64,000 bases of DNA from Opitutaceae bacterium (GTDB lineage Bacteria; Verrucomicrobiota; Verrucomicrobiia; Opitutales; Opitutaceae). Where the stretch lies: contig JAHFTC010000001.1 in NCBI GenBank assembly GCA_023269585.1, forward strand, positions 1-64,000, given 5' to 3'. Under the pieces are notes generated by a model, which did no database searches, was not told the DNA's origin, and was given only the letters and a program-made list of their open reading frames with translations. Of this stretch, positions 9,173 through 34,058 are shown piece by piece; the stretch's first letter is position 1; every line of letters begins with the position of its first letter. Position numbers and translations under genes: made by a program.

Positions 9173-9682
9173 ATGCAACGCCTGACGTGCGACTACTGCG
9201 GTCTGCCCTTCCGCGCGCCGTACAAGCCGGCGACGGAAGCGAAGGCGTATTGCTGCTCCGGGTGCGCGCTGGCCGACCAGCTGGGCATCGAGGGCGAAAA
9301 GTTTCCCATCTCGCCGCAGCTGATCTTCGACCTCGTGCTGGCGTTCGGCGTGTTCAACCAGTTCCTGCTCGTGCTGCTCGCGACGGCGCTGCGGCGGGAC
9401 GGCCGGGTGGAGTCCGCCGTGCTGTGCGTGACGCTCGCGGCGGGGCTCGGCGCAGTGCTGTACCTCGCGGCGCTGGTGTGGCAGTGGCGCAGCCGCTGGC
9501 TGCGCGCGAGCGATGCGTTCCTGTACGCGCTGCTGGCGGCGCCGGCGCTGGGTGGCGCGGTGGTCGGCCTGTGGTTGAAGCGCGGTGACGCCGCGTTGGT
9601 GGCTGCCGTGGCGAATCTGCTGCTGGTCGTGTGGCAAGGGCGCGGGTTCCTGCGGCGGCTCTGGGCACGGCGAAACAAGTAG
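9173..9682 (+). CDS. Membrane protein with Cys-rich metal-binding N-terminus
   Basis: A 169-residue protein. The N-terminus has C6-x2-C9 and C27-C28-x2-C31, like the putative metal-binding domain found at the N-terminus of FixI/CopA2-type P-type ATPases. Hydrophobic segments follow (LIFDLVLAFGVFNQFLLVLL, AVLCVTLAAGLGAVLYLAAL and two more). The same Cys layout occurs at the start of the ATPase gene directly downstream, so the protein is probably a partner in copper handling or cytochrome oxidase assembly. Its TAG stop is provided by the palindromic repeat that begins at 9679. Confidence 0.6.
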   Translation: MQRLTCDYCGLPFRAPYKPATEAKAYCCSGCALADQLGIEGEKFPISPQLIFDLVLAFGVFNQFLLVLLATALRRDGRVESAVLCVTLAAGLGAVLYLAALVWQWRSRWLRASDAFLYALLAAPALGGAVVGLWLKRGDAALVAAVANLLLVVWQGRGFLRRLWARRNK

Positions 9683-9771
9683 GGCGGCGCTTCAGCCCGC
9701 CCTGTTCGGCCCTGCGCTCGGGTGCGGTTCGCGAATCGCATCTTCCGGGTCGCCCTGAAGGGACGACCTAC
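9679..9771. repeat. REP-pair element (distant copy of the RAYT-linked family)
   Basis: Two hairpins sit back to back. The first, 9682-9704, has AGGGCGG/CCGCCCT arms around GCTTCAGC. The second, 9747-9771, has GGTCG/CGACC-type arms around a CCCTGAAGGG core and ends in CGACCTAC. The second is the reverse complement of the left hairpin in the 30257-30580 array. The element starts with GTAG, whose TAG is the stop codon of the gene at 9173-9682. Confidence 0.75.
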
Positions 9772-29020: not shown

Positions 29021-30076
29021 ATGGGTCTGATCTATGAACAACTGGTCCGTCCGCTCGCGTTCCGCCGCGACCCGGAAACGGTGCACGAAACGGTCGTGGG
29101 CGCGCTGGCGACGCTGGGCCATCTGTCCCCGCTCTGCCGCCTCCTTGAATGGTGGAACGCCCTGCCGGCGAGTGTGCGCAAGCCCGTCGAATGCGCCGGG
29201 CTGCAGTTCCCGAACCGCATCGGCTTGGCCGCCGGTTTCGACAAGAACGCCGAGTGCTGGCCGGCCGCGGCCGCGCTCGGGTTCGGCCACGTGGAGATCG
29301 GCACCGTCACGCGGCTTGCGCAGCCGGGCAACCCGAAGCCGCGCCTGTTCCGTTTCCCCGCCGAGGAGGCCGTCCTCAACCGGATGGGATTCAACAACGC
29401 CGGCGCCGAGGCCATGGCGCGCCGGCTCGCCGGCCAGCCCAAGCGCGGCCACCGGCGCCTCCCGCTCGGCATCAACCTCGGCAAATCCAAGGCCGCCCCG
29501 CTCGACGAGGCCGTGGCCGACTACCTCGCCAGCTTCCACCTGCTCGCCGAGCACGCCGACTACATCGCCATCAATGTCAGCAGTCCGAATACGCCGGACC
29601 TGCGCAAGCTCCAGGAGCACGACCGGCTGGTCGAGCTGCTCGGGGCGCTCCAGCGCGCCAACGCCGAGCGCGAGGCCGCCGTCATGGGCGGCCGCCGTCC
29701 GATCTTCCTGAAGATCGCCCCCGACCTCACCTGGCCGCAGATCGACGACATCCTGCAGATCCTGCACGACCTGCGGCTCGACGGCATCATCGCCACCAAT
29801 ACCACGCTCGAGCGCCCCGGCGCGCTGGCCGGTGTGACCGAGGCCGGCGGACTGAGCGGCCGGCCGCTCTGCCGCCGCTCGACCCAGATCATCAACTACA
29901 TCGCCCGCGCCACGGGCGGCCGCCTGCCGATCATCGGCGTGGGCGGCGTGACCGACGCCGCCACCGCCGGCGAGAAGCTCGATGCCGGCGCCACGCTGGT
30001 GCAGGTGTATTCCGGCTGGATCTACCGCGGCCCGTTCTTCGCCGCCGAACTCGCCCGCGCGTTGTCCTACCGCTGA
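29021..30076 (+). CDS. pyrD: Dihydroorotate dehydrogenase (quinone), class 2
   Basis: A 351-residue flavoenzyme that oxidises dihydroorotate to orotate with quinone in pyrimidine synthesis. It has the class 2 N-terminal membrane-associating helices (MGLIYEQLVRPLAFRRDPET), GLAAGFDKNAECWPAAAALG, FNNAGAEAMARRL, the catalytic Ser loop AINVSSPNTPDLRKLQ, IFLKIAPDLT, and the FMN-phosphate site IIGVGGVTDA with VQVYSGWIYRGP. It lies alone; the other pyrimidine gene in the window, pyrE, is about 15 kb away. Confidence 0.95.
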   Translation: MGLIYEQLVRPLAFRRDPETVHETVVGALATLGHLSPLCRLLEWWNALPASVRKPVECAGLQFPNRIGLAAGFDKNAECWPAAAALGFGHVEIGTVTRLAQPGNPKPRLFRFPAEEAVLNRMGFNNAGAEAMARRLAGQPKRGHRRLPLGINLGKSKAAPLDEAVADYLASFHLLAEHADYIAINVSSPNTPDLRKLQEHDRLVELLGALQRANAEREAAVMGGRRPIFLKIAPDLTWPQIDDILQILHDLRLDGIIATNTTLERPGALAGVTEAGGLSGRPLCRRSTQIINYIARATGGRLPIIGVGGVTDAATAGEKLDAGATLVQVYSGWIYRGPFFAAELARALSYR

Positions 30077-30256: not shown

Positions 30257-30580
30257 GTAGGTCGTCCCTTCAGGGCGACCCGACAGGTGTGGGATTGCTC
30301 CCGGGGCCGATGCGAGGGCTGGGCCGAACGGGTCGTGCTGAAGCAGCGACCTACGGCGGGCCGGCGGAGGTAGGTCGTCCCTTCAGGGCGACCCGGCAGG
30401 TGTGGGATTGCTCCCCGGGCCGATGCGAGCGCGGGGCCGGGCGGGTCGTGCTGAAGCAGCGACCTACGGCGGGCCGGCGGAGGTAGGTCGTCCCTTCAGG
30501 GCGACCCGGCAGGTGTGGGATTGCTCCCGGGGCCGATGCGAGGGCGGGGCCGGGTGGGTCGTGCTAAAGCAGCGACCTAC
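30257..30580. repeat. Tandem array of three REP-pair (BIME-like) units
   Basis: Units at 30257-30354, 30370-30467 and 30483-30580 are each 98 bases with a 15-base spacer, giving a 113-base period. Every unit opens with GTAGGTCG and a hairpin with GGTCG/CGACC arms and a CCCTTCAGGG core. It closes with a second hairpin (TGCTGAAGCA core) ending CGACCTAC, so the unit ends are inverted. Units are about 95 percent identical by eye. The last unit overlaps the stop codon of the RAYT gene. Confidence 0.92.
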
Positions 30581-31170
30581 TTTACCCAGGGGTATTGATC
30601 CCATGTGGTTGCTAAGCCGGCCTTCACTGGGTTCTGGCGGATGTACTCGACGATGCGCGCCTGCTCCGGGTCGTCGCGTACCCAATGATCGAACCACTCA
30701 GCCTGCCAGAACGAACCTGCGCGGTGCAGCGTGAGGTTCAGAGTCCGGGCGGAGCGGCCCTTGAAGTGGGCGAGGGCGACGTGCAGTGGGAACGGCGCAG
30801 GGCTCGTCGGCAGGAGCAACAAGTGTACGTGGTTGGGCATCACGACCCTATGCGGGCAGGCCCAGCCGTGCGTGGCCTCGAGTGCGGTCAGTTCGCCTGT
30901 GAGGCGCTCGCACAGACTCGCTTCGATGAACGGGGCGAAGCCGTCGCCGGAGTCTAGATACTTCTCGCTCGCGCGGAAATAGTGCCGCTGCAACTGGGCG
31001 AATTCGGCCGAACGGGGCGCGACGGCCTGGATGGAACGGTGGATCTCGCGGAGACGTTCGGCCGCCGCGGCCGGAATTGATCCCGCGCACCGGATGGTGA
31101 CGAAGTGCGGGCGGCCCTCGACTTCCCAATGGGGGAGGCGTTTGCGCCAACGTTCCCGGGTGTCCGCCAT
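30577..31170 (-). CDS. REP-associated tyrosine transposase (RAYT, Y1 HUH family)
   Basis: A 197-residue single-strand DNA endonuclease of the TnpA-REP type. It has the HUH motif H114-V-H116 in VVMPNHVHLLLLP, and the RAYT C-terminal signatures GSFWQAEWFDHWVRDD and VEYIRQNPVKAGL, with Y176 the likely catalytic Tyr. REP arrays lie immediately on both sides, as expected for a domesticated element whose substrate is the REP hairpin. ATG at 31170 (MADTRERWRKRLPHW) is chosen; a GTG at 31236 would add 22 residues. The TAG stop is part of the adjacent REP (GTAGGTCG). It lacks the IS200/IS605 mobile ends. Confidence 0.92.
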   Translation of the reverse strand: MADTRERWRKRLPHWEVEGRPHFVTIRCAGSIPAAAAERLREIHRSIQAVAPRSAEFAQLQRHYFRASEKYLDSGDGFAPFIEASLCERLTGELTALEATHGWACPHRVVMPNHVHLLLLPTSPAPFPLHVALAHFKGRSARTLNLTLHRAGSFWQAEWFDHWVRDDPEQARIVEYIRQNPVKAGLATTWDQYPWVK

Positions 31171-31236
31171 GGGGCGAAGGGTGGGTGTATCCGGAGTTTC
31201 GGCAAGCCGGGAAGCGGATCGCGCCGTAGTGCGCAC

Positions 31237-31416
31237 GTAGGTCGTCCCTTCAGGGCGACCCGGCGGGTGTGGGATTGCTCCCGGGCCGATGCGAGGGCGG
31301 GGCCGGGCGGGTCGTGCTGAAGCAGCGACCTACGTGCGGGCCGGCAGGGATGGGACAGCTCTCCGGGCTGGTGCGAGGGCGGAGCCGAACGGGGTCGTGC
31401 TGAAGCAGCGACCTAC
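31237..31416. repeat. REP-pair units on the other side of the RAYT gene
   Basis: A complete unit at 31237-31333 (97 bases) is followed by a partial one at about 31335-31416, which has lost the left hairpin but keeps the right one (TGCTGAAGCA core, end CGACCTAC). Orientation is the same as in the 30257-30580 array, so the RAYT gene sits inside one interrupted array. The last repeat ends two bases from the znuB stop codon. Confidence 0.9.
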
Positions 31417-31417
31417 G

Positions 31418-32302
31418 TCACTCGCAGGTGTGCTTGATGGCTTTGCCTTCGCGGAGGCCGCTGAGGAGGCGGGCGACGATGCCGTAGCGCGGGCTGCCGA
31501 GGGCGGAGGCCAGGAAGAACGCGCCGAGGGCGAGCACGATAGCGGCGCCGCTGGGCAGGCCGGCGTGGAAGCTGACGAAGATGCCGACGATCGAGCCGAG
31601 TACGGCTGTGATGGCGGAGAACGCGAGCATCGCGGGCAGGCGGTCGCACCAGAGGTAGGCGGTGACGGCCGGGAGCAGGAACAACCCGAGCGCGAGCACC
31701 ACGCCCATCGCCTGGAGCGCGGCGACGAGGTTGATCACGCAGAGCGCGAGGATGCCGAGGTGCGTGAGCCAGCCGCGTCCGCCGGTGGCGCGGTGGAAAA
31801 CGGGGTCGAAGGTTTCCAGCACGATGCTGCGGCGGAAGAGTGCGAAGACCGTGACGGTGAGCGCCGCGGCGCCGCCGGCGAGGGCGACATCGGAGGGGCC
31901 CACGCCGAGGATGTTGCCGAAGAGGAAGTGCAGGAGGTCGACGCGCGCGGGCAGGCGGCTGACGAGCGCGACGCCGCCGGCGAAGAGCACGAGGAAGAGC
32001 GAGCCGAACGCGGCGTCCTCCTTGATGCGGGTGAGGCGGCTGACGAGGCCGCCGCCGAGCGCGGTGAGCAGGCCGGCGAGCAACGCGCCGAGGAGGAGGG
32101 CGGGCAGGCTGGGCCCGAAAAGCAGATACGCGACACCGATGCCGGGCAGGAGCGAGTGCGAGAGGGCGTCGCCCATGAGCGAGAGCCGACGCAGGACGAG
32201 GATGCAGCCCAGCAGTCCGCCGCTCAGTCCAAGCAACGCCGCCACCAGCAGCCCGCGCTGCAGGAAGGCGTAGCTGAACGGTTCGAGGAGGAAGGAGATC
32301 AT
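31418..32302 (-). CDS. znuB: Zinc/metal ABC transporter permease (ZnuB-like)
   Basis: A 294-residue ABC-3-family permease with about eight membrane segments. GGLLGCILVLRRLSLMGDAL then SHSLLPGIGVAYLLFG is the conserved N-terminal signature, and ALQAMGVVLALGLFLLPAVT is the family's C-terminal signature. It imports Zn(II), possibly Mn(II), with the ATPase at 32953-33783 and the binding protein at 34166-35203. Its start overlaps the stop of an inserted lipoprotein gene by 4 bases. The REP array begins two bases after the stop codon and may stabilise or end the mRNA. Confidence 0.9.
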   Translation of the reverse strand: MISFLLEPFSYAFLQRGLLVAALLGLSGGLLGCILVLRRLSLMGDALSHSLLPGIGVAYLLFGPSLPALLLGALLAGLLTALGGGLVSRLTRIKEDAAFGSLFLVLFAGGVALVSRLPARVDLLHFLFGNILGVGPSDVALAGGAAALTVTVFALFRRSIVLETFDPVFHRATGGRGWLTHLGILALCVINLVAALQAMGVVLALGLFLLPAVTAYLWCDRLPAMLAFSAITAVLGSIVGIFVSFHAGLPSGAAIVLALGAFFLASALGSPRYGIVARLLSGLREGKAIKHTCE

Positions 32303-34009: not shown

Positions 34010-34058
34010 GCCCGTGCTGAAGCAACGGGCCACGTGGCGGGGTGCTTCAGCCCCCGCC
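34010..34058. repeat. REP-like hairpin pair, variant arms
   Basis: The first hairpin (34010-34030) has GCCCG/CGGGC arms around TGCTGAAGCA. The second (34036-34058) has GGCGGGG/CCCCGCC arms around a GCTTCAGC-type core. The cores are the same as in the RAYT-linked REPs while the arms have changed in a compensatory way. Confidence 0.7.

Follow-up and report, generated by a model that had tools for sequence, protein, structure and literature searches.

An island of paired palindromes surrounding a tyrosine transposase gene, within the 64,000-nt stretch of Opitutaceae DNA analysed here (the window), is very probably a REPtron: a single-copy, domesticated RAYT of the Y1 HUH type together with its own GTAG-footed family of REPs in an Opitutaceae-like verrucomicrobium, for which binding and nicking of the repeats are predicted. 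As REPtrons go, the island is an ordinary one. The reports of Nunvar et al. 2010 (PMC2817692) and Di Nocera et al. 2013 (PMC3733652), in the parts available, make this kind of system a known one; GTAG repeats have already been reported in the same family, in Opitutus terrae, and the supply of TAG stop codons by repeat feet has been in print since 2013 (PMC3733652). What is added here is a phase control, a comparison of homologous protein ends, the distribution of a stop-codon trait across RAYTs, and one complete case together with its paralogue.

The RAYT (TnpA-REP) gene occupies positions 30577..31170 on the minus strand, with an ATG start at 31170-31168 and a TAG stop at 30579-30577, and encodes 197 amino acids (219 if the open frame is read from a GTG). 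Three complete REPINs lie downstream of it with a 113-nt period: unit 1 at 30257..30354 (REPs at 30257-30280 (+) and 30331-30354 (-)), unit 2 at 30370..30467 (30370-30393 (+) and 30444-30467 (-)) and unit 3 at 30483..30580 (30483-30506 (+) and 30557-30580 (-)). Upstream of the gene lie unit 4 at 31237..31333 (31237-31260 (+) and 31310-31333 (-)) and a partial unit 5 at 31341..31416, which consists of the spacer and the right REP only (31393-31416 (-)). The island is flanked by pyrD, encoding a quinone-dependent dihydroorotate dehydrogenase (29021..30076, +), and by a metal (zinc-type) ABC transporter permease gene (31418..32302, -), the foot of unit 5 being located one base past the TGA of the latter. 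The four full units are 92-96% identical in pairwise comparison, and the tandem array would most simply have arisen by local duplication of one REPIN together with a short piece of its flank. No promoter- or terminator-like sites were found at the island.

A preliminary description of this DNA had recognised both the array and the gene, and what it observed holds: three full double-hairpin units of 98 nt on one side of the gene and one full plus one partial unit on the other, all in the same orientation, and a 197-aa protein in which the motifs HVH, FWQAEWFDHW and YIRQNPVKAGL are all present. The units have a TCCC-type hairpin on the left and a CTGC-type hairpin on the right, of which the partial unit keeps the right one. 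What it overlooked is that gene and array overlap, since the TAG that stops the RAYT is the TAG of the GTAG foot of the adjoining unit 3, at its right end.

The protein has the hallmarks of a RAYT, that is, a Y1 HUH nuclease with intact HUH and tyrosine motifs (here NHVH and YIRQNP), the RAYT-type W-Q ... YI..NP arrangement, and REPs of one family on both sides of the gene. The NCBIfam model REP_Tyr_transpos matches it with E=2e-21 and 76.2 bits, slightly below the cut-off of 80, and a paralogue in the same genome passes this cut-off with 83.1 bits. Using a profile of eight homologues, the best relative of solved structure is the E. coli TnpA-REP (4er8, E=4e-8), with the IS200/IS605 transposases all ranking behind it. 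Residues H114/H116, W155, Q156, D161, R165, Y176, N180 and P181 are invariant in the alignment of the eight homologues, at positions that the accessible part of PMC6006769 names for catalysis and GTAG contact; in the alignment with 4er8, the residues by which the E. coli enzyme contacts the GTAG foot correspond to W, Q, D, H and R in the window protein. A tree of 85 RAYTs joins the window protein to this paralogue (SH-aLRT 96), and both belong to a clade whose 36 rows come without exception from Verrucomicrobiota or the window's order. The nearest homologues belong to Opitutia, Opitutaceae and Puniceicoccaceae MAGs, in agreement with the verrucomicrobial host suggested at the outset and pointing to an Opitutaceae-like organism. 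A scan of named genomes with the window RAYT alone gave no match, and one with the alignment of eight RAYTs gave 70 loci.

Each half-unit of the array is a 24-nt REP composed of a GTAG foot, a lower stem GTCG/CGAC, a one-base bulge, a variable upper stem and an apical CTTCAG; because of the bulge, a scan for perfect stems missed it. The genome was searched with the pattern GTAGGTCGNNNCTTCAGNNCGACC and, as a control, with the same pattern reversed. At up to three mismatches there are 136 REPs (65 + 71 by strand) versus a single match for the reversed pattern, and at up to two mismatches 104 versus none, which excludes chance. The RAYT thus has, as had been proposed, a REP family of its own, and its copies are numerous outside the locus rather than confined to it. 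Counts of genomic context rest on 105 REPs, from loci around most of about 100 of the 136 matches, after removal of locus L136, which duplicates part of the window (107 reduced to 105). Seventy-four of these REPs form 37 facing pairs, or REPINs, 41-51 nt apart and most commonly 45, so that inverted pairs at a set distance are the repeated unit; a solitary REPIN of the family elsewhere in the window (9679..9771, REPs at 9679-9702 (+) and 9748-9771 (-)) provides with its left foot the TAG stop of the gene ending there. The foot is GTAG in 84 and GTGG in 16 of the 105 REPs, which comprise 41 distinct sequences, and one exact 24-mer is common to 30 of them. Three variable stem positions are Watson-Crick paired in 38, 36 and 40 of the 41 distinct sequences, compared with maxima of 28, 23 and 30 over 2000 shuffles, through compensatory combinations (T-A/G-C/A-T, T-A/C-G/G-C and C-G/G-C, respectively). 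The family accordingly shows a GT(A/G)G foot beside an imperfect palindrome whose pairing is kept by compensatory change. Dispersed units mostly retain the hairpins only, and spacer identity falls to 70-76% (40 of 72 candidates scored).

The family belongs to the window's species. At up to two mismatches, a search of 95 genomes recovered the 104 copies of the genome itself, nine in the sister species G001 of the same genus, none in G002, and one copy each in six of the remaining 92, with three stray matches for the reversed pattern among all 95. Cognate REPs are thus abundant in the genome that carries the RAYT and few where it is absent (nine in G001, zero or one in the other 93). The G001 genome, a MAG of 94% completeness whose assembly breaks on both sides of the RAYT-island junction, holds its nine copies but has a best RAYT of only 35% identity, so copies can exist, or persist, without the cognate gene.

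Other RAYTs of the lineage are accompanied by other hairpins, and those at the paralogue and at close homologues are akin to the window family yet distinct from it, so that RAYT and REP go together. The paralogue (60% identity) on contig C112 (L045, G000:C112:40047-43451) occupies a separate array built of 204-nt units, in which the hairpins have the CTTCAG tip of the window family but a GTGG foot and a different stem; two hairpins of this GTGG family also stand in the window at 34010-34057, back to back with their feet inside. Among the less closely related RAYTs in this genome, two (C153 and C1) are located among quite different GTAG hairpins, and a further one on C129 has different GTAG hairpins at its end. 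The C129 gene (L044:697-2067 (-)) reads through its REPs without a stop into the downstream frame, giving 457 aa in total. In G081, G092 and G032, where the homologues are 46-49% identical, the hairpins are tipped with CTTCAG or CTTTAG; in G017 and G029, with homologues at 41-42%, the tips are others. The repeats at the homologue in G080 (48%) keep CTTCAG but have a foot other than GTAG, which means that the foot rule is not universal.

By analogy with the TnpA-REP enzymes of E. coli and Stenotrophomonas, the RAYT would bind the folded, single-stranded REP through the GTAG foot and the bulged stem. It may recognise only one REP strand, using GTAG as a guide for a cut at a nearby dinucleotide, as described in the available part of PMC8266576; the predicted nick near the REP would be made by the tyrosine of YIRQNP, and the enzyme could thereby help to spread paired REPs as non-autonomous units, with the inverted partner carried along. 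The RAYT probably copies the hairpins of the array in which it resides. Judging from sequence, the system may be active or recently active: the local units are near-identical, the family is rich in this species but sparse in its sister, and several of the corresponding sites in related species are free of REPs.

Two other readings of the island have to be weighed. A mobile insertion sequence of the IS200/IS605 type, with subterminal hairpins and tandem copies of its ends, would share the Y1 fold family (Pfam Y1_Tnp, 24.2 bits) and would likewise have hairpins on both sides of its gene. This is very improbable, and the element was rejected on copy number and model scores: the gene is single-copy, with its closest paralogue at 60% identity, and the NCBIfam IS200 model gives 17.4 bits against a cut-off of 55; in addition, TnpA-REP is the best solved match, and pairs of the hairpins are found throughout the genome unaccompanied by the gene. 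An IS200-like transposase, which the preliminary description had named as a result that would tell against its reading, is thus not what was found. A relic, in which the RAYT is dead and the REPs either survive as fixed remnants or persist solely as host elements (for transcript ends or mRNA protection), would fit the reduction of dispersed units to their hairpins with spacers at 70-76% identity, as well as the clustering of REPs at gene ends. We nevertheless consider it unlikely, given the intact catalytic and GTAG-contact residues, the 92-96% identity of the four local units, the exact 24-mer shared by 30 REPs, and a copy number that differs about tenfold between species of one genus. A REPtron remains the preferred reading; the points that count against it are the NCBIfam score slightly under the cut-off, the nine copies in G001 despite a RAYT of only 35% identity, and the different foot of the G080 repeats.

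The overlap of the RAYT stop codon with a REP foot recurs in other RAYTs. A survey of the own, related and named genomes started from 104 loci, which reduce to 95 distinct rows and 92 usable ones. In 28 of the 92, the window's included, a recurring GTAG repeat provides the TAG with which the RAYT ends; the repeat follows the gene's own stop in 27, there is none within 200 nt in 24, and 13 RAYTs run on into the repeat (six GTAG and seven GTGG, of which two in phase). The trait requires at least 19 changes on the tree. In a first scan of 98 loci with duplicates kept, the first recurring repeat was found at the stop in 31 cases and at least 9 nt beyond it in 27, never in between, and 40 RAYTs had no recurring repeat within 90 nt.

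Neighbouring genes show a related pattern. For gene ends and reading phases 104 REP sites were used, one REP being too near a locus edge, and genes were scored by codon usage; at 36 of these sites, the end of a confidently coding gene falls no more than 60 nt before or 100 nt after the foot. Its stop is the TAG of the foot itself in 13 genes, lies 3-55 nt before the foot in 23, and lies further on in none of the 36. Coding frames run into a REP foot in 12 cases, all in the TAG phase (12:0:0), and none of the 104 sites is entered in another phase. The same DNA contains 1205 other GTAG sites, for which the corresponding split is 20:52:3.

Nine of the genes ending on a foot were compared with their homologues. 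In eight, the end of the closest homologue is within one residue of that of the protein in the window's genome (G000), and in the ninth, where the comparison is with a paralogue, the ends are six residues apart; more distant homologues differ more, by up to nine residues. Six genes have at least one homologue in a related species that uses its own TGA or TAA with no recognisable REP there, namely those read from their sequences, rather than from searches, as a dihydroxy-acid dehydratase, an SNF2-type helicase, an M32-type peptidase and a nitrilase-like protein, and the genes ending at C52:9679 and C52:86043. In the SNF2-like and nitrilase-like genes the homologue reads C|TGA or C|TAA where G000 passes into the REP. 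In the sister species, ligA has a TAG at the same point from a different REP family, and a second ligase gene carries the same REP at its end. The ligA stop in question (L280, G001:C37) comes from GTAGGACCGGTCTGCGACCGGTC, as if one family had replaced another. Comparison of the sequences indicates that, in the genes compared, REPINs take the place of the native stop and the protein loses little or nothing; a C-terminal truncation of genes by REPINs is not borne out by the homologue ends.

The flush placement at gene ends would result from selection or from a preference for landing at stops. It is rather probable that no landing preference is needed, and that REPINs land anywhere while only harmless insertions survive, placed either after a stop or so that their TAG terminates the frame immediately. 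If insertions in the other phases were purged, a 12:0:0 split would remain, and the harmless ends are those near the native ones. Two observations point, suggestively at most, beyond such filtering: the agreement within one residue in eight of nine closest homologues is tighter than harmlessness strictly needs, and the C|TGA and C|TAA of two homologues resemble the CT cleavage site of TnpA-REP given in the accessible text of PMC8266576.

A different relation to reading frames is seen outside the window, where several related RAYTs lie in frame within larger reading frames. Nine of ten such frames contain a Pfam host enzyme in the same frame, and the tenth is a transposase only. Three hosts, from three Opitutaceae-family genomes, are of the isochorismate-synthase type (L063:874-2994 (+), L064:556-2727 (-) and L081:727-3126 (+)); the others are a creatininase (L072:619-2850), a Cas_NE0113/adenosine deaminase (L077:157-2928), an HsdR (L080:667-3537), two RecG helicases (L239:1555-4380 and L237:1369-4422) and a type ISP restriction enzyme (L227:823-5106), all on the plus strand. 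The enzyme is recognised on both sides of the RAYT in the six non-synthase hosts; the N-terminal side of the three synthases was identified by aligning them with homologues that are not interrupted. The RAYTs inside the synthase-type genes have no stop and are joined by repeat-coded linkers on both sides. By hand count, the synthase halves are about 125 nt or less apart in 42 of 57 genomes, where the gene is uninterrupted, and in two of the 57 (G025 and G007) a RAYT separates them within a single open frame, as in the query. The literature, as far as the accessible parts of it extend, yielded no description of RAYTs nested in frame in host genes, which is no proof of absence.

Comparison with known systems, based on the available portions of the papers cited, places the island among established relatives. 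Nunvar et al. 2010 (PMC2817692) described RAYTs with flanking REPs, in many cases at a very short distance from the stop codon, and with the gammaproteobacterial REPtrons of that study the island shares the REP-flanked RAYT, the GT(A/G)G head of the REPs, their high copy number and restriction to a species, compensatory changes in their stems, and co-divergence of RAYT and REP; the Thioalkalivibrio REP GTAGGTCGGCCTTCAGGCCGAC bears a striking likeness to that of the window. It differs in its verrucomicrobial host, the one-base bulge, the location of the gene within a tandem array of whole REPINs, and the stop codon supplied by a REP foot. Di Nocera et al. 2013 (PMC3733652) found Opitutus terrae to be highly enriched in GTAG repeats whose termini often give flanking ORFs their TAG stop. 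These repeats of O. terrae and the PVC group resemble those of the window in bacterial family, GTAG foot, outward-footed pairs and TAG stops, whereas the dimers of families GTAG-17 and GTAG-19 are only 1-2 bp apart, unlike the window's REPINs; in the part of that paper at hand, the treatment of stop codons includes no phase control or homologue comparison. The REPINs of P. fluorescens (Bertels and Rainey 2011, PMC3116915) similarly disperse as facing pairs at a set distance and form tandem arrays, but differ in RAYT group, host, spacing and hairpins.

At the protein level, the HUH, W-Q and YI..NP motifs align with those of the E. coli TnpA-REP (4er8), which also has a bulged, long REP; in the window RAYT the HUH half is preceded by about 80 additional N-terminal residues, the C-terminal extension is lacking, and D replaces E100. 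The protein may belong to TnpA-Y1 subclass 2.7: the motifs [ND]HVH, WQ and YI[LR][NQ]NP, the change of E100 to D, long REPs and the lack of a C-terminal extension agree with the entry for that subclass in the table of PMC6006769. By the same table, as available, the length of 197 aa is nearer to the median of subclass 2.4 (194) than to that of 2.7 (213), although the HuH-Y distance of about 60 does not fit subclass 2.4, with its median of 88.

The island provides a well-delimited REPtron outside the Proteobacteria, with a paralogue and a sister species at hand. The gene-end pattern amounts to a testable rule for how a repeat family fills a dense genome, namely flush with gene ends and with an in-phase stop; if landing is biased, beyond selective filtering, the GTAG foot would have two roles at once. 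It is possible, if still doubtful, that neutrality towards translation is built into the REP/RAYT cassettes of this lineage, or has been selected for, with the foot as both nuclease guide and portable stop, RAYTs that end on their own REP, and in-frame nesting with repeats as linkers. If so, a REPIN could replace the stop of a gene and leave its protein almost unchanged, and the hairpin at the RAYT stop codon would leave room for self-limiting control.
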